Part shown: one piece after another, positions 44,651 to 53,273 of the stretch
Layout: every line of letters starts with the position of its first letter
How positions within the stretch are numbered: position 1 is the stretch's first letter
DNA from: Tolypothrix bouteillei VB521301
GTDB taxonomy: Bacteria; Cyanobacteriota; Cyanobacteriia; Cyanobacteriales; Nostocaceae
Assembly: GCF_000760695.4 (NCBI RefSeq)
Contig: NZ_JHEG04000001.1
Coordinates: 3,692,452 to 3,756,451 of the forward strand
DNA: 64,000 nt
Direction of reading: 5' to 3'
Notes under the pieces: model-generated
What the model was told of the DNA's origin: nothing
Seen by the model: the letters and a program-made list of their open reading frames with translations, nothing else
The model's database searches: none
Translations under genes and position numbers: made by a program

Positions 44651-45509
44651 TCAAACTCTTCCACCCTTTCATACCAAGTCGTTGTTGCGCTTGTATCATT
44701 ACTTAAGTTTAATAAACGCTATTAGCTAAGTAGATCTAATGTTATTCATTTTAAAACTTTATTACAGTACTTATATCAGGATTGTAGCTAAGAGTAACTT
44801 TTTAATCATGGAGGTTTGTAGTAAGGAATGTTTATGAATGTAGCCTTTCTATTCCATGATGGCAACTATTTCTTTATTAAAAAGCTACAATCACACTATT
44901 GACAAAATAACTATTATTTGCATAGAAATTTTAGCAACGAGCATTGGGCACAGAGCATTGGGCAAAAGCCATCGGGCCGTGAAAATAAGAATTAAAAAGA
45001 GGAATTAAATGACTTTTCATAATGCTCATTCCCATCCTCTATTTCCTCTGCCCAATTCGATCGATTTGCCTTATTCAACCTTCTCCAAAATCTGTAGCCT
45101 TTTTTTAAAACCTAAGTAACATTTAGAACATATCAGGTAATGTTGTTCTTTGTTAACTTATGTCATAATAAGGTATTATCTACCATAAGGGGGTTGACAA
45201 AAATATTATGTATAAATAAGTTATGGTGAGCTTCCTAAAGTTGCACATTATAGTTTGTCAAAACTGTAACAATGGTTGTAAAAATAATAGATAGGTTTAA
45301 TACATCAGGGGTAACAAAATCTCTGCTCTAGTATGAGTGATTTGACAAAAAGCGGTCAACCTCTTACAAAGAGCTAATCTTCAAAAAGCTGAATTTTACT
45401 ATCAAAACAGTTATTCCGTTTTGTTTAAAGTATAAATTCTTTGCAATACAATGCAACTCTACTTAAGTAAAAATTAGATTTCTAAGTATAGAAATACATC
45501 TGCATCTAC
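44651..45509. other. Long spacer between ftsQ and the ATPase gene
   Basis: No gene is supported in this 859-bp divergent spacer. GAGCATTGGGCA occurs twice close together (near 44940 and 44955). A TTGACA box at 45194-45199 followed 17 bases later by TAAGTT (45217-45222) is a weak candidate promoter for the ATPase gene, with a leader of about 285 nt. The last 200 bp are very AT-rich. Confidence 0.45.
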
Positions 45510-46847
45510 ATGAAAACAACACTAAATTTGTCGCGCTTTTTCAAAGCCTGTAACCCCAGTAAGACGTTAATCATGGGCGACGCATCTGACAGGCAATACT
45601 ACATCGACTTCTCTACAGTACGCGGCTGTAAAATAGTTGAGGAATTGCAAAGGACAATTATCCGTATTTCCCCGGATGAGCCGACTTGCCAATTATTTAC
45701 AGGTCACATCGGTTGCGGTAAGTCAACAGAGTTGCAAAGACTGAAGACAGAACTAGAACTAGCTGGATTTCACGTGGTGTATTTTGAATCCAGTCAAGAT
45801 TTAGATATGGCGGATATCGATGTTAGTGATATTTTGCTGAGTGTAGCTCGTCAGGTAAGTTCCAGCTTAGAAACAATCAACATCAAAGTTAGACCCAGTT
45901 ACTTTGCCAACCTGTTCAAAGAAATTGGGGATTTTTTACAAACCCCTATAGAATTGTCAGCACAGGCGGAACTGTCTTTAGGGATCGCCAAAATAAGCGC
46001 TAAAACAAAAGATAGCCCTCAATTGCGAACCCAATTGAGACATTACTTAGAACCACGTACTAACAGTATTTTGCAAGCAATTAACGAAGAAGTCTTGGAT
46101 AAGGCTGTTGAACAACTGAAGTTACGGGGTCAAAAAGGGTTAGTCGTAATTATCGACAATTTAGATAGAGTTGATATGCGTCCGGTAGCATCTGGGCGAT
46201 CGCAACCAGAGTATCTCTTCATCGATCGCGGCGAACAGCTCAGACGGCTCAAATGTCACGTTGTTTATACAATTCCCCTGTCATTAATATTTTCTAATGA
46301 GTACCAAACACTTAAAAATCGCCTTGGCGGTGGTGTTGCGCCCAAAGTTCTACCAATGGTACTTGTTCGCCAACGAGATGGTAGCGATTACGAAGCAGGA
46401 ATGTCTCTATTAAGACAACTTGTGTTAGCAAGGGCTTTTCCCGAAATCCCACCATCACAGAGATTGGAATTCATTACAGAGTTATTTGATAAACCCGAAA
46501 CCCTCAATCGTCTGTGTCGAGTCAGTGGCGGTCACATTCGTAACTTATTGGGATTGCTTTATAGCTGCTTGCAAAGAGAAGATCCACCTTTTTCAGAGGA
46601 TTGTTTGGAAGCTGTTATTAAAGACTATCGGGACGATCTCTTGCTTGCTATTGATGATGAAGAATGGCAACTACTGTACGAAGTTATACAACAACAAAGC
46701 TTAAGTGGTGAATCAGATTACCAAAGATTGCTTCGGAGTATGTTTGTTTTTGAATACCGAGATCCCCAAGGACGTTGGTTTGGTATTAGCCCTGCATTGG
46801 CAGAAACAGACAAAGTTTTGACTTGGCAAAAAAACCGTACTCAGTAA
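45510..46847 (+). CDS. P-loop ATPase paired with the STAND-WD40 gene
   Basis: 445 residues. Walker A is GHIGCGKST (about 66-73) and Walker B is LVVIIDNLDR (about 211-220), with a helical C-terminal region from about 300 (sensor-like GGHIRNLLGLL). The overall pattern is that of AAA/STAND-class NTPases without attached sensor repeats. The N-terminus (FFKACNPSKTLIMGDASDRQYYIDFSTVRG) is the hallmark of a family I have seen repeatedly in cyanobacteria, usually next to large STAND or TPR proteins. No membrane segment. The next gene downstream, 363 bp away in the same direction, is the 1667-residue STAND-WD40 protein, so a two-component NTPase system is likely. The function is unknown. Confidence 0.85.
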   Translation: MKTTLNLSRFFKACNPSKTLIMGDASDRQYYIDFSTVRGCKIVEELQRTIIRISPDEPTCQLFTGHIGCGKSTELQRLKTELELAGFHVVYFESSQDLDMADIDVSDILLSVARQVSSSLETINIKVRPSYFANLFKEIGDFLQTPIELSAQAELSLGIAKISAKTKDSPQLRTQLRHYLEPRTNSILQAINEEVLDKAVEQLKLRGQKGLVVIIDNLDRVDMRPVASGRSQPEYLFIDRGEQLRRLKCHVVYTIPLSLIFSNEYQTLKNRLGGGVAPKVLPMVLVRQRDGSDYEAGMSLLRQLVLARAFPEIPPSQRLEFITELFDKPETLNRLCRVSGGHIRNLLGLLYSCLQREDPPFSEDCLEAVIKDYRDDLLLAIDDEEWQLLYEVIQQQSLSGESDYQRLLRSMFVFEYRDPQGRWFGISPALAETDKVLTWQKNRTQ

Positions 46848-47210
46848 CTAGTGACCCAATACTTGTCGGTTAAGCCGTTTTTTCCTCCCCTGCACCCCCT
46901 GCAACCCCTGCACAAAGGTGCTTGTCTGTAGCGACAATTTTCTTAACCGAGCAGTATTGACTAGTGACCCCAATTCCTATTGAAAATGCTAGGTGCTAAG
47001 TATGCGTACATATAAATTTGTATCATAAGTTATAATTTGCCGAGCATTATAAGTATAGGGCTGGGTTTGCCAAATACCGGGAAACTCGTTTGTAGTTCTG
47101 GGCTCACCAAAAACCAAGTCGTTGGGTGAGTGAACGCGAGTTCTTCCGTTCCAATCTTCCTTGTTTTCCTTGTCTCCAATCCCAATATCCCAATTCCCAA
47201 TCTCTAACAT
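46848..47210. other. Spacer between the ATPase and STAND-WD40 genes
   Basis: 363 bp without a supported gene. It contains a C-rich run of CCCCTGCA-like units (about 46887-46913), two CTAGTGACCC copies (46849 and 46961) and, near the end, overlapping CCCAATTCCCAAT-like strings. No clear terminator or promoter. Confidence 0.45.
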
Positions 47211-50200
47211 ATGAAGGAGTGCCATTTTGAGCTAGAGAATCAAAGCGAAAATCAAGGTTCTCTACAAAGATTAATCAGAGCGATCGCGCTTTCACAAGGT
47301 CAATTTGCTCTAATTTTAGTACGTTGCAATTATCGACAACTACAAGAGCAAATTATGATAGCTTTCCGCGCTCTTAATAAAGACAAGTATGTCCGAGAAG
47401 TTGTTCTTTCTCCGTCAACAACAACTTTACATAATGCTTTATTCCAAGTACTTTATCCAGAGAATTCTGACCTCGCTATCGACTCTTTTCCATCAGGTCT
47501 AATGGTTTTTGGACTTGAGTCAGTAATTTCGATTGAAGACCTTCTCACTGGCTTTAACCAAGCACGGGATATTTACGCCCACAATTTTCCTTTTCCATTA
47601 GTTTTATGGCTGACAGATGAAGTTGCAATGCTGCTGTCAAGATTAGCTCCTGACTTTAAGAGTTGGGCTGCAACAACTATAAAATTTGAAATGGCACAAC
47701 AAGAGTTAATGGCTTTAGTAAGAAAAGAAACAGAGTCATTATTTACCAAAGTTGTAGAAGCTGGAGTCAAAAAATTTTTACCCAATACCGCCCTTGATTT
47801 AGACCCAAAATCACAGCATCGTAAAGAAATTGAATCTGCTCGTCAGGATTTGCTTCGCGTTTATAATGTTACCTTAGAGATAGATTTAGAAGCGGGGCTA
47901 GAATTTGTTTTAGGTCGCGATTATTATGCTAGAGATGAAATAGATAATGCTTTATCCCATTATCAACAGAGTTTAACTCTTTGGGAACAGCAGTTAAGAG
48001 GGGAGCAAATTTCATCTTCTCCGTCTCCTTATTTTCTAAGATATGCAATAGTACTATTTCACTTAGGATTGTGCTATCTTCGCATGGCAGATTTACATCC
48101 TTCTGTCAGCAAAAGGTATTGGCAAGATGCTCTGGTCTTGTTTCAAAAATGTTTAGATATTTTAGAGTCTATACAAAGACAAGATTTAATTGCCAAATTT
48201 ATTTTGCTAACTTGTGAAATTTTGAAAAACTTGCAAGATTGGGAAAACTTGGAAAAACTTGCTTGCAAATCTCTAGAATTACACGAAATTTACGGGACTA
48301 AAGCACAAGTTGCACAAGATTATGGCTTTTTATCTGTTGTAAATGCTTCTAAAGCTAATTGGTTAAAAGCTTATGAATTAGCAAATCAAGCATTAAATAT
48401 TGCGGAAGGTGCTTCAGATATTTCACGACAGCAGGAGAGTTGGTATCTTCTGTTACTTGGATGCGCTCAAAGACATTTAGGTGAGTGGGAGGAAGCAGTC
48501 AATAATTTGGAATGGGCAAAAATTGTTTGTGAGTTGCAGTACGATCCTTCACTTTACTTGGAAATAGTTAAAGAATTACACTCACTCTATTTTTTTGAAA
48601 GTCATGACTATTTGGAAGCTTTTAAGCTCAAAAGAGAAAAAATTCAAATAGAACATCAATATGGTTTTCGTGCTTTTATCGGGGCGAGTCAATTACAACC
48701 ACAACGGTATAGAATTAATCCCATACATACTTCTCAGGAAATCCCCTCTTTTCGTGAAGAAGTGGCTCGGGAAATAGCAACTTCTGGAAGGCAACAAGAT
48801 ATCAACCGTTTAATTGAAAGGATGACTCGTGCTGATTGTAAACTCACAGTTATTCATGGCTCAAGCGGTGTTGGAAAAAGTTCAATTATTAAAGCGGGTT
48901 TGTTACCAGCTTTAAAACGAAAAGTGATTGGCGATCGCCTGCCCATAACAGTTTTTTTGTCAGCATACAATGATTGGAAGGCAACGATTTTTCATAATAT
49001 CAATTTAACAATTGCTGGGGATGAAACATTAAATTCTCTAGAAAGCTCTATTTTGAGTATTATCCAAAAGATAAAATTGGCTACAAACCGAAATTATACA
49101 ATAATTTTAATTTTCGATCAATTTGAAGAATTCTTCTTTGTTAATACAGAATCGCAATTTAGAAAAGAATTTTTTGATTTTTTATTTGAGTGTTTAAACA
49201 TACCCTTTGTAAAAGTCATTCTCTCTATGAGAGAAGATTATTTACATTATTTATTAGAGTTGGAGCGTTACAGCCAGTATCAAAAAAACGAGTGCGATTT
49301 AGGAATTATTAATGGAGATATTCTTGATAAAGATATTAGGTACTATCTTAGCAAATTTTCCAGTCAAGATGCAATTAATATTATCAAAAGCTTGACTCAG
49401 CATTCTTATTATGAAGCTCAAGATGAGTTAATTACTAAATTAGTTCAAGATTTAGCAGGTGAAGTCGGTGAGGTTCATCCCATTGAGTTGCAAATTGTAG
49501 GTGCTCAATTACAAGCGGAAAACATTACAACTCTTGAAGAATATCTGATATGTGGTGGTTCAGAAAAACTGGTACAGCGTTGGCTAGAAGAAGTTATTAA
49601 AGATTGCGGAGAAGAAAATGAATGTATAAGCTGGCAATTACTGTTTGAGCTAACGCATGAAAAAGGTATCCGACCTCTTAAGACCAAAGCTGAGTTACTC
49701 TCTGCTCTCTCCCAAAAAGAAGGGGGAAATGGTAGCTCCGGAGTATGGGAAAATTGCGCTCCTTCTCCCCTCATCCCTCTTTCCGCTAGTTTGGAACTCA
49801 TTTTGGAAATCCTTACAGGAAGTGGATTAGTGCTGAGAATGCGTGAAGAATCAGGCGATCGCTATCAGTTAGTTCATGACTATTTAGTAGAACCTATACG
49901 CCAAAAAAATAACTATGAAATCACTGCTGAATTAAAAAAAATTCGTTTTGAAAAGAACAAAGCAGAAGTAGCTCAAAAAATCTCTCAAGAGCAACTAAAC
50001 TCTGTTTTAAAACGAAGACTGCGAGAAGCTCGTATAGTCGGTTTTTTATTAACTGTATTGCTAGCAGTTATAGGAGGATTGTGGTGGAATGCTTATTTAC
50101 AAAAAAGAGCAGCCGTGAGTCAAACTTTACGTGCAGAACGTAGCGAAACTAATTTAAAAATTAGTGCTTTGACAGCAGCAAGTGAAGCTTTATTTGCCTC

Positions 50201-52214
50201 TAATAAAGAGTTTGATGCTTTACTGGAAAGTTTACGAGCGTTTCGCAAAATGAAACAAGCAAAAGATATACTTCCAGATACACAAATGCGAGTTGTGACA
50301 GCCCTACAGCAGGCGGTTTATGGAGTTACAGAGGTAAACCGTTTGGAAGGACATCACGATATTGTTTGGTCTGTCATTTTTAGTCCTGATGGTCGGTTAT
50401 TAGCATCAGGGAGTACAGATCGAACAATAAAACTGTGGCGTCGTGATGGATATTTACTCCAAACTCTTAAAGGTCACCGTGATGCTATAACTAGCTTATC
50501 TTTTAGTCCTGATGGACAAACTTTAGTCTCTAGCAGTCTTGATAAAACTATAAAACTTTGGCGAAAAAATTCAATCACAGGTGCTTTTGACCCGTTACCA
50601 TACAAAACTCTAAAAGGTCATAAAGATTGGGTTTATAGCGTGAGTTTTAGCCCTGATGGTAAAATGTTGGCTTCTACTAGCAAGGATAGAAGTATATACC
50701 TTTGGCATACTGATGGTCGCCTAGCAAAAAAACTTTACGGACACCAAGGCTGGGTGAATTGGGTATGCTTTAGCCCTGATGGTAAATTTCTTGCTTCAGC
50801 TAGTGACGACAAAACTGTAAAAATTTGGCGGCGAGATGGTCGTTTGATGAAGACTTTATTGGGACATCAAAAGGGGGTAACTTCTGTTGCTTTTAGTCCT
50901 AACGGTCAGATGCTAGCATCAGCAGGACGAGATAAAACCGTTAAACTTTGGCGCTGGTCGGATAGTCAGGATGGCTTAATATTCCATCTTGACAAAACTT
51001 TACAGCACCATAGCGCTACCATTTGGAGTGTTAGCTTTAGTCCTAACAGCCAGCAATTGGCATCGGCTGGCGATGATAATACTATCAATCTCTGGAGTGC
51101 TAGCGGTACTTTCGTTAAGAGTTTTAAGGGTCACAGCGATGCTATTGCTAGTGTGGCTTTTAGCCCGGATAACAAGCTTTTGGTGTCGGCTAGTTATGAC
51201 AAAACCATCAAACAGTGGAGTTTAGAACCTCCGAGGCTTCCAATTTTAAAAGGTCATAGTGATAGGGTCTTGAGCGTTGCGTGGAGACCGGATGGCAGAA
51301 TGTTGGCTTCAGGTAGTCGCGATCGCACGGTGAAACTGTGGCTGCGCGACCGTTATGGCATGAAAACTAGTCTTTACAAAACTTTAATGGGACACAAAGA
51401 CAGAGTCCCTAGCGTCAGTTTTGACTCATCCGGTCAAATCTTGGCTTCTGGAAGTTATGACAAAACTGTTAAACTTTGGCGCAGTGACGGTTACCTGCTG
51501 AAAACCCTCAAAGGGCATACTGATAGCGTTATGAGTGTCAATTTTAGCCCTGATGGCACGTTATTGGCTTCGGGTAGTAAAGATAAAACCGTTAAGCTTT
51601 GGAATCGCGAAGGTAAATTGCTTGCTACTTTAAAAGGTCATCACGGCTGGGTCAACAGCGTAAGTTTTAGTCCTGATAGTCAGGTGTTAGCTTCAGCCAG
51701 TGATGACCAAACAGTCAAACTGTGGAGGCGAGATGGGACTTTACTCAAGACTTTTTCTCCTCATGAAGGTTGGGTTATGGGTGTAGGGTTCAGTCCCACC
51801 GATCATTTGCTAGCATCTGCAAGTTGGGACAACACCGTAAGATTGTGGCGTTGGGATGGCAAATTATTAAAAACTTTACTGAAGGGATATAGTGACAGTG
51901 TCAATGCTGTGACTTTTAGTCCTAATGGCGAGATTATTGCTGCGGCTAGTTGGGACAGCACTGTAAAACTGTGGAGTCGTGATGGTAAGTTAATTAAAAT
52001 TCTCAACGGTCATCAAGCACCCGTACTGGGTACTAGCTTTAGCCCTGATGGTGAGACTTTGGCATCAGCTAGTGATGACAACACAATTATTCTGTGGAAT
52101 TTAGATCTGCACGACTTGCTGGATCGGGGATGCTATTGGGTGGGTAATTATCTCAAGTACAATCGCAATATTGACCAGCGCGATCGCAATTTATGCTACA
52201 ACCGTGACCGTTAA
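47211..52214 (+). CDS. Giant STAND-type NTPase with TPR-like and 14 WD40 repeats
   Basis: 1667 residues. (1) About 1-210: a domain shaped like a P-loop NTPase but without Walker A (GQFALILVRCNY, LMVFGLESV, FPLVLWLTDEV, APDFKSWAATTIKFE). (2) About 225-500: TPR-like helices. (3) About 530-900: an active-looking STAND NTPase with Walker A GSSGVGKSS (about 550-558) and IILIFDQFEEFFF (about 631-643). (4) One transmembrane helix near 944-965. (5) A coiled coil. (6) About 1043-1640: fourteen WD40 repeats (LKGH...FSPDG...LASASDDKTVKLW), enough for two seven-bladed propellers. The architecture is that of a signalling or immunity sensor: repeats detect, NTPase oligomerises. It lacks an obvious enzymatic effector. 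The partner is the ATPase gene upstream. Confidence 0.92.
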   Translation: MKECHFELENQSENQGSLQRLIRAIALSQGQFALILVRCNYRQLQEQIMIAFRALNKDKYVREVVLSPSTTTLHNALFQVLYPENSDLAIDSFPSGLMVFGLESVISIEDLLTGFNQARDIYAHNFPFPLVLWLTDEVAMLLSRLAPDFKSWAATTIKFEMAQQELMALVRKETESLFTKVVEAGVKKFLPNTALDLDPKSQHRKEIESARQDLLRVYNVTLEIDLEAGLEFVLGRDYYARDEIDNALSHYQQSLTLWEQQLRGEQISSSPSPYFLRYAIVLFHLGLCYLRMADLHPSVSKRYWQDALVLFQKCLDILESIQRQDLIAKFILLTCEILKNLQDWENLEKLACKSLELHEIYGTKAQVAQDYGFLSVVNASKANWLKAYELANQALNIAEGASDISRQQESWYLLLLGCAQRHLGEWEEAVNNLEWAKIVCELQYDPSLYLEIVKELHSLYFFESHDYLEAFKLKREKIQIEHQYGFRAFIGASQLQPQRYRINPIHTSQEIPSFREEVAREIATSGRQQDINRLIERMTRADCKLTVIHGSSGVGKSSIIKAGLLPALKRKVIGDRLPITVFLSAYNDWKATIFHNINLTIAGDETLNSLESSILSIIQKIKLATNRNYTIILIFDQFEEFFFVNTESQFRKEFFDFLFECLNIPFVKVILSMREDYLHYLLELERYSQYQKNECDLGIINGDILDKDIRYYLSKFSSQDAINIIKSLTQHSYYEAQDELITKLVQDLAGEVGEVHPIELQIVGAQLQAENITTLEEYLICGGSEKLVQRWLEEVIKDCGEENECISWQLLFELTHEKGIRPLKTKAELLSALSQKEGGNGSSGVWENCAPSPLIPLSASLELILEILTGSGLVLRMREESGDRYQLVHDYLVEPIRQKNNYEITAELKKIRFEKNKAEVAQKISQEQLNSVLKRRLREARIVGFLLTVLLAVIGGLWWNAYLQKRAAVSQTLRAERSETNLKISALTAASEALFASNKEFDALLESLRAFRKMKQAKDILPDTQMRVVTALQQAVYGVTEVNRLEGHHDIVWSVIFSPDGRLLASGSTDRTIKLWRRDGYLLQTLKGHRDAITSLSFSPDGQTLVSSSLDKTIKLWRKNSITGAFDPLPYKTLKGHKDWVYSVSFSPDGKMLASTSKDRSIYLWHTDGRLAKKLYGHQGWVNWVCFSPDGKFLASASDDKTVKIWRRDGRLMKTLLGHQKGVTSVAFSPNGQMLASAGRDKTVKLWRWSDSQDGLIFHLDKTLQHHSATIWSVSFSPNSQQLASAGDDNTINLWSASGTFVKSFKGHSDAIASVAFSPDNKLLVSASYDKTIKQWSLEPPRLPILKGHSDRVLSVAWRPDGRMLASGSRDRTVKLWLRDRYGMKTSLYKTLMGHKDRVPSVSFDSSGQILASGSYDKTVKLWRSDGYLLKTLKGHTDSVMSVNFSPDGTLLASGSKDKTVKLWNREGKLLATLKGHHGWVNSVSFSPDSQVLASASDDQTVKLWRRDGTLLKTFSPHEGWVMGVGFSPTDHLLASASWDNTVRLWRWDGKLLKTLLKGYSDSVNAVTFSPNGEIIAAASWDSTVKLWSRDGKLIKILNGHQAPVLGTSFSPDGETLASASDDNTIILWNLDLHDLLDRGCYWVGNYLKYNRNIDQRDRNLCYNRDR

Positions 52215-52237: not shown

Positions 52238-52609
52238 TTACATACCTAATGAGGGTTCGCTTTCTACGACAAGTCCGTCATTACCATTGCCAACAGTTAG
52301 TTCCTGTTCTAAATATTTGAGGAAAGTTTGCAACTTCATGCGCTCTATGTAAGGCCAACCCCCCTCAGCTTCGATATTACGCAGCAGGGAATAGAGTGCT
52401 TGACGGTTATCAGGTAGACTTTGCTGAAAAGCCCCCTCTCGAATTTCTTGGTGTAACTGCTCGAGCTGGCGCAGTAAGGCTAAAAGGGAAATCGTGTCGC
52501 CTTGAGAATCCTGCACTGCATTGTTAACAGCAGTTGCGATCGCTTGCAGTTGGGAAGACAAGTTTGTTGACAAATTGACTGACTCCGTTGCTTTGCCGTT
52601 GTGACTCAT
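52238..52609 (-). CDS. Small conserved cyanobacterial hypothetical protein
   Basis: 123 residues from ATG 52609 (MSHNGKATES). Mostly helical with heptad-like leucines (SLLALLRQLEQLHQEIREGAFQQSLPDNRQALYSLLRNIEAEGGWPYIERMKL), suggesting a coiled-coil or helical bundle. An acidic C-terminal tail follows. No domain recognised. The in-frame ATG at 52654 would add 15 unconvincing residues. Convergent with the STAND-WD40 gene, 23 bp between stops. Confidence 0.7.
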   Translation of the reverse strand: MSHNGKATESVNLSTNLSSQLQAIATAVNNAVQDSQGDTISLLALLRQLEQLHQEIREGAFQQSLPDNRQALYSLLRNIEAEGGWPYIERMKLQTFLKYLEQELTVGNGNDGLVVESEPSLGM

Positions 52610-53273
52610 TGAAACCTCTGTTAGAAACCCTGTCAATCTTTGATTTAAAATCAATTTATCGCAGGTCGTTGAGTTGGACTATAAATCTACAGAGCGAGAA
52701 TTGCTTTCACTTTTTCGCTCCCCTTTTATAGTACCGTTCTATGCGAAAGAAACTTGACACATTTTACACACATATGTTGCAAGTGGGTGTTAACGACGTA
52801 TTAAAAATAGGTTACAAAATCCACAACTAACCCCTGCCCTCTTCTAACTTGAAAAAGGCAGAAGGTAAAGACACCTTAAAAGACTTGCGCGTACACCGTA
52901 GCTCCTTTAAGGAGAGGGAGGGTGGAAGGGTGACATTTGCCGAACTCGTGTTACTTTATAGCCTTCTAGCTTCTCAGTAAAGATTTCAGAAAAGTACTCC
53001 AGCGATCCCAGCTTGTAGTTCAATATTAAAACGCTTTGATTTTGAGTTAAAAAAAATCGTATGATCTGGCTGATGATTTGCTAATTACCCATAAGACAGT
53101 GGGCTGTATGTAAAACTGTGGATTTTTCTGGTATCCTACAACCACACATCTTGTCAAGATGTTGTGCGCGGGCTATTTGGGATTTTTCCCCAGATAAAAG
53201 AAGGCTAAACGTTAAGCACATTTAGCGGTCAGTTTTACTACATAATTAATAATTTTTTACATTGAGGTTAACC
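52610..53273. other. psbO upstream region
   Basis: No gene. It presumably contains the psbO promoter and leader. ACATCTTG-T-CAAGATGT (53146-53162) is a perfect palindrome about 110 bases before the psbO start, a candidate operator or hairpin. A G/A-rich patch GGAGAGGGAGGGTGG sits near 52911. Confidence 0.5.

Follow-up and report, generated by a model that had tools for sequence, protein, structure and literature searches.

STAND proteins usually act through N-terminal enzymes or death-fold adaptors, and Apaf-1 is a STAND switch followed by two WD40 propellers. In bacteria, a two-gene operon with one active and one inactive STAND NTPase has been described for which a mixed ring is predicted; this operon is described as mobile, and GT4 or HEPN is the most usual fusion partner of its inactive module (Kaur et al. 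2021, eLife 70394). The iSTAND systems also include an inactive STAND component (Kaur et al. 2020, eLife 52696). Here we describe a two-gene locus of the cyanobacterium Tolypothrix bouteillei VB521301, contained in a 64,000-nucleotide stretch of contig NZ_JHEG04000001.1 (positions 3,692,452 to 3,756,451), referred to as the window. Gene A codes for a free-standing AAA+ ATPase, and gene B, on the same strand and separated from it by 363 bp, codes for a large protein organized as an N-terminal pseudo-AAA+ domain (the N-domain), a TPR region, an nSTAND1 NTPase, a probable membrane helix, and a WD40 array (Table 1). The pair is best read as a variant of STAND signalling, a conserved two-gene ATPase/pseudo-ATPase receptor.

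The locus resembles the operon of Kaur et al. 2021 (eLife 70394) in having active and eroded AAA+/STAND domains in adjacent genes, as judged here by motif and predicted fold, with a larger module attached to the eroded one. It differs in that the fusion is to TPR-nSTAND1-WD40 and the copy is chromosomal and syntenic; no Pfam match to GT4 or HEPN is present in gene B residues 1-1040. The iSTAND/VMAP ternary systems (eLife 52696) share NTP-driven signalling and an inactive STAND component, but no MoxR or vWA gene is found among the 10 window neighbours scanned (37.9-59.4 kb). Gene B is like Apaf-1 in placing STAND before WD40, and the gene A model matches CED-4, although there is no CARD or caspase match here, the N-terminus is pseudo-AAA+, and the ATPase is a separate gene. 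Cyanobacterial STAND-WD40 proteins share the nSTAND1 domain and long WD40 array, and the pair differs from these in its pseudo-AAA+ N-domain and dedicated ATPase partner. Of the features of STAND NTPases with repeat sensors, gene B has an intact Walker A and a C-terminal repeat array, and a Pfam scan of its residues 1-1040 shows no recognisable effector domain. KAP-family NTPases are typified by membrane helices inserted into the P-loop domain; gene A passes the Pfam KAP cut-off (PF07693, 26.7 bits against 20) and a plasmid homologue carries a KAP annotation, but gene A has no such helices, its highest hydropathy over 19 residues (KD19) being 0.87. No 19-mer in it reaches 1.6, a value attained by three of the 143 ATPases compared.

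Table 1. Features of the two-gene locus (positions in the window)
Feature	Position	Strand	Description
Divergent ftsQ-gene A intergenic region	44651..45509	.	Best conserved at about 45252-45322 and 45490-45509 (window and 17 loci)
Gene A	45510..46847	+	AAA+ ATPase of the ORC/Cdc6/STAND/TnsC kind, 445 aa
Gene A Walker A, residues 65-72, GHIGCGKS	45702..45725	+	GxxxxGK[ST] in 143/143 ATPases compared, window included
Gene A Walker B region, residues about 211-220	46140..46169	+	From sequence and conserved alignment columns
Gene B	47211..52214	+	N-domain-TPR-nSTAND1-(membrane helix)-WD40x14, 1667 aa
N-domain, residues 1-185	47211..47765	+	Pseudo-AAA+, without Walker A
TPR region, residues about 186-500	47766..48710	+	PF13424, E 7.6e-12
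nSTAND1 NTPase, residues about 526-859	48786..49787	+	PF20703, E 4e-29
STAND Walker A GSSGVGKS, residues 550-557	48858-48881	+	Motif in 123/123 compared
Probable membrane helix, residues 940-958	50028..50084	+	KD19 2.09; K/R 4 before, 2 after
14 WD40 repeats	50346..52130	+	Pfam matches and repeat count

By sequence comparison, gene A and gene B make up a conserved unit, likely a stable signalling pair. The closest named matches of gene A are from Nostocales, and among the close orthologues (the best 80 of 283 relatives, with ATPase identity of 84-89%) a gene with the N-domain follows the ATPase in all 78 that can be tested, the other two (L066 and L069) running into a contig end; L labels denote loci and G labels genomes of this analysis, and G000 is the window's own 9.95-Mb genome. 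The pair is also present in N. punctiforme NIES-2108 (L030). The window's genome has four ATPase genes, one of them split over two matches, and each is followed by an N-TPR-STAND-WD40 gene. A second set comprises 62 diverged ATPases from 61 loci (three own paralogues and 58 others), chosen for diversity and not at random; 57 of them have an N-domain gene no more than 3 kb downstream. These 57 partners are varied: 38 have STAND and at least nine WD40 repeats, 12 have STAND and at most four, two have the N-domain and TPRs, and five have the N-domain alone, although one of these five (L152) is a split full-length gene. The remaining N-domain-only partners (L135, L142, L143, and L158, with L142 and L143 nearly identical and L135 belonging to the same family) show that the N-domain is the part that travels with the ATPase, whether STAND-WD40 is present or not.

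Across 386 cyanobacterial genomes, and among the matches listed (the genome listings of the ATPase, N-domain, and ftsQ are partial, with at most four ATPase candidates scored per genome), the ATPase is present in 84 and the N-domain in 86; 83 have both, one has only the ATPase, and three only the N-domain (Fisher p about 1e-79, with shared ancestry not corrected for). The pairing proposed in the first-pass annotation of this DNA is thus borne out in the close, diverged, and genome-wide sets. Nine plasmid records have an ATPase relative, and an N-domain is present in exactly those seven whose ATPase is a close one; the best places for the two are adjacent in four of these, and confirmed in two. 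An Acidobacteriota plasmid has a distant ATPase (27%) overlapping an open reading frame (ORF) with TPRs near a CHAT-domain gene, and this ORF, taken as the longest one, matches the N-domain weakly (E 6e-5, with a best stretch of about 41 positions). On a Nostoc plasmid (L201:5259-9131, + strand) a distant gene A relative forms the C-terminal part of an SAV_2336-type protein; this plasmid also has a MoxR ATPase, with formylglycine-enzyme-like and HEAT genes nearby.

The N-domain matches no database family above cut-off. Walker A is missing from all 136 N-domains compared, and the AlphaFold2 (AF2) model (predicted local distance difference test [pLDDT] 90.8, predicted template modelling score [pTM] 0.84) folds like the AAA+ domains of TnsC and ORC; on these grounds, motif and predicted fold rather than assay, the N-domain is read as a pseudo-ATPase, in agreement with the earlier guess of a pseudo-NTPase. 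Residues N116, P129, and W133 are invariant in 44 of 44 N-domain rows. A stand-alone N-domain protein of 176 aa is also coded elsewhere in the genome (L102:8006-8536, - strand; G000:C1:957011-957463), where the 16 kb retrieved contain no ATPase, and similar short copies are present in many genomes of the same family; it could be a competitor of gene B for the ATPase.

Gene A is a free P-loop ATPase with an intact Walker A, as had been proposed, and the Walker positions suggested for the two genes (about residues 66-73 and 550-558) are correct within one residue. Its AF2 model (pLDDT 91.2, pTM 0.90) has long fold matches to Cdc6/Orc1 and TnsC and also matches CED-4 and Apaf-1, with a beta hairpin near the C-terminus that could be part of a winged helix. 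Because many AAA+ families tie in the Foldseek and VIA lists, no single structural relative is claimed. An NCBIfam scan gave nothing above cut-off, a PDB sequence search gave no match for gene A and weak matches only for the STAND part of gene B, and in PHROGs gene A had a single weak match, the N-domain having none. PADLOC matches of gene A (PDC-S20, E 5.9e-6; mad8, E 1.3e-4) and gene B (HEAT-ARM_XIII at E 2.4e-54, falling in the WD40 array; weakly also LmuC, mad8, and LmuB) are to generic domains and are not taken as membership.

The 1,667-residue architecture first proposed for gene B, with TPR-like helices, an intact STAND, and 14 WD40 repeats, agrees with the Pfam matches, Walker motif, and repeat count of Table 1. 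A Pfam scan of residues 1-1040, run in four pieces, has only TPR families and nSTAND1 passing the cut-offs, and the best 25 rows of a whole-protein scan are WD40 or propeller families. The first-pass annotation saw no nuclease or protease effector, and neither these nor a TIR or CARD-like effector is above the Pfam cut-off in residues 1-1040. The predicted membrane helix is strong in the window but not universal: of the 70 close orthologues (counting the window's copy) 36 have a KD19 of at least 1.6, as do 44 of 50 more distant proteins, and on these counts the helix is graded as probable. Among the proteins with a strong helix, K/R residues are more numerous before it than after it in 24 of 36 close and 38 of 44 distant ones, suggesting that STAND would be cytoplasmic and WD40 outside the cytoplasm.

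The WD40 array probably forms two seven-bladed propellers. Each of the 69 full-length close orthologues, among them the window's own protein, carries 14 repeats. When the window's repeats are compared with those of 68 loci, a repeat is most similar to the one with its own index number in 895 of 952 cases. Mean identity to the window is 85% for gene A, 72% for WD40, 64% for TPR and N-domain, and 63% for STAND. This fixed number and order of repeats argues against a diversifying invader sensor. Among the 57 more distant partners, N-only and cut copies included, 25 have 14 repeats. The T. bouteillei genome has a strongly expanded WD40 set: out of 641 first-look candidates 150 were scored, giving 150 listed repeat matches, of which many are in long open frames.

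The window's copy is located among housekeeping genes. Gene A is divergent from ftsQ, behind which are ftsZ and gshB, and downstream of gene B are orf138, psbO, and a sigma factor gene; the neighbours also include a GTPase with HflX-type domains, in our reading of the Pfam rows. Of the 80 close loci, 77 have ftsQ, and the other three (L041, L058, and L074) end at or before it. Among the copies listed there are 150 ATPase copies in 69 genomes, with ftsQ listed in 64 of the 69, and 34 copies are ftsQ-linked, one per genome (34 of 64 testable genomes, eight families); all 34 are divergent from ftsQ, at 164-1986 bp. The unlinked copies listed with at least 69% identity are in G191, G197, and G354 (the last at a contig start), and in G191 the pair is kept with orf138 and psbO, away from ftsQ. 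The N-only partners L142 and L143 likewise have ftsQ and ftsZ. Twelve ftsQ sites from the same family were picked by hand, and 14-15 kb were retrieved for each. In all 12 ftsQ adjoins orf138, psbO is present in 11, and gene A and gene B are both missing from the retrieved DNA; an ATPase is kept elsewhere in 11 of these 12 genomes. In an ATPase tree of 67 rows, 15 of them linked, the ftsQ label changes three times under a midpoint root, against 13.8 in shuffles, and paralogue groups fall among the ftsQ-linked rows. From the conserved place at ftsQ and the joint absence of both genes at the 12 sites, the window's copy is judged to be old, syntenic, and not essential. The first-pass annotation held that its reading would be refuted if family members were universally single-copy core genes with housekeeping phenotypes, and this applies only by half: the ftsQ copy is widespread and present once per genome listed, but it is missing at 12 sites, and the family has several paralogues per genome, some on plasmids.

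The product of orf138 (window 52238-52654, - strand, 138 aa) has no Pfam match; the gene is conserved between the pair and psbO and is retained at sites where the pair is missing. Promoter- and terminator-like sites between 44.6 and 47.3 kb are at chance level, and an Rfam scan of 40-56 kb gave no match. Three variant loci are of further note. At L153:4278-6302 (+) the ATPase lacks an N-domain neighbour and carries 240 additional residues at its N-terminus, unless these are an artefact of taking the longest ORF; L167:2272-13955 (+) is a tandem of two pairs, the second with only a short WD40 part; and at L142:1805-8041 (-) a 2,078-aa protein kinase-AAA-GAF-PAS-histidine kinase hybrid is coded downstream of the N-only partner.

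We propose, at about even chances, that gene A and gene B make up a single signalling device, in which a STAND receptor has a fixed ligand and a pseudo-AAA+ head through which it engages its own ATPase. Gene B would be a probably membrane-bound receptor with WD40 propellers that bind one fixed ligand, and binding would open nSTAND1, an ATP-driven assembly switch. The N-domain, on its TPR arm, would sit where other STAND proteins have TIR, CARD, or a nuclease, so that receptor clustering would present N-domains, which would recruit free gene A protein, either to complete its active site or to join it in an AAA+ assembly of active and inactive subunits; the AAA+ ATPase assembly would then be the output. 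This device, with its deduced contact between N-domain and gene A and order of events, is favoured by co-inheritance in genomes and on the seven plasmids, the N-only partners, the Acidobacteriota plasmid ORF, the AAA+ folds of both models, the absence of both genes at the empty sites, and a distance correlation of 0.84 between ATPase and N-domain, against 0.78 between N-domain and STAND within one protein (53 pairs). The output may lie in signalling during stress or development and not in defence. A bolder version, in which a dead AAA+ subunit in the effector place activates a free AAA+ ATPase in trans in ORC fashion, the ATPase/pseudo-ATPase is an ancient core of perhaps two phyla with or without STAND-WD40, and the ftsQ place reflects an envelope or septum report, seems unlikely.

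Several observations weigh against the receptor-ATPase device. Gene B is split or shortened in L028, L049, and L088 with the ATPase intact, although sequencing error is possible, and five of the 62 diverged ATPases (L153, L160, L177, L179, and L180) have no N-domain neighbour. The membrane helix is weak in half of the close orthologues, R119 is missing from two of 44 N-domain rows, and 14 of the 57 more distant partners, N-only and cut copies included, are without any WD40 repeat. The two distance correlations are uncorrected for shared phylogeny. No sequence similarity between N-domain and gene A that would point to a common origin was detected in comparison, so the mixed ring is a guess from fold.

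The first-pass annotation favoured anti-phage defence or programmed death, with the membrane helix or the partner ATPase as the possible effector. In such a system WD40 would sense an invader, STAND would oligomerise, and the ATPase or membrane helix would kill or stall the cell. For multicellular bacteria, STAND systems and others that depend on NTP have been predicted to serve in conflict (eLife 52696, eLife 70394), and this explanation is also favoured by plasmid-borne paralogues, by one copy between recombinase genes beside HicAB and NACHT genes, by C-termini that differ among paralogues, and by the absence of the pair at the 12 ftsQ sites. Against it are the conserved place beside ftsQ and psbO and the fixed repeats, with WD40 (72%) better conserved than STAND (63%). 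No relative was found in 50,697 phage records, nor among the 69 stretches that matched the pattern used in a single scan of viral contigs. A defence island at the window locus is rejected on its housekeeping neighbours. A small PADLOC comparison of neighbours of ftsQ-unlinked copies with arbitrary loci gave no enrichment, with 104 families matched in 80 neighbours and 130 in 80 controls; the proteins were shuffled samples of 80 of 353 neighbours and 80 of 160 controls (three and one dropped by hand as short or at an edge), the control loci were placed at round coordinates, and the rows shown are mostly of one family, PD-T4-6, a kinase. An anti-phage role is thus not supported for the window's copy on this sequence evidence, and as an account of the pair it is rather doubtful. 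Some paralogues may act in defence: besides the plasmid copy near HicAB and NACHT genes, there is L160:4998-8834 (+), where the ATPase lacks an N-domain partner and an AbiEii-like AAA_21 gene comes next, along with DUF4276.

A module linked to cell division or the septum, in which ftsQ and the ATPase gene, divergently arranged, are controlled together and the pair monitors the condition of envelope or septum, would account for the divergent orientation of all 34 linked copies in eight families, for ftsQ and ftsZ at L142 and L143, for the conserved intergenic DNA blocks, and for the probable membrane helix. However, the 12 related genomes with ftsQ and without the pair indicate that division does not need it, paralogues are found elsewhere, the G191 pair stays with psbO having left ftsQ, and the synteny may be passive, making this quite unlikely. 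The long model matches to Cdc6/Orc1 and TnsC and the C-terminal beta hairpin, a possible winged-helix part, would also suit an ORC-like DNA-binding regulator whose ATP state is set by gene B, with transcription or replication control as the output, but the gene A model matches CED-4 and Apaf-1 too, which act without DNA, and this role for the predicted fold is very unlikely.

Read as a receptor with a dedicated ATPase, the pair, with a pseudo-AAA+ domain in the effector place and a separate ATPase in 83 of 386 genomes among the matches listed, offers a testable case of ATPase/pseudo-ATPase signalling. The N-domain, which has no Pfam model, could serve to annotate many cyanobacterial proteins. 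The pair also represents an NLR-like receptor kept in place with a fixed sensor instead of diversifying, which makes the step from 'STAND-WD40' to 'immune' unsafe.

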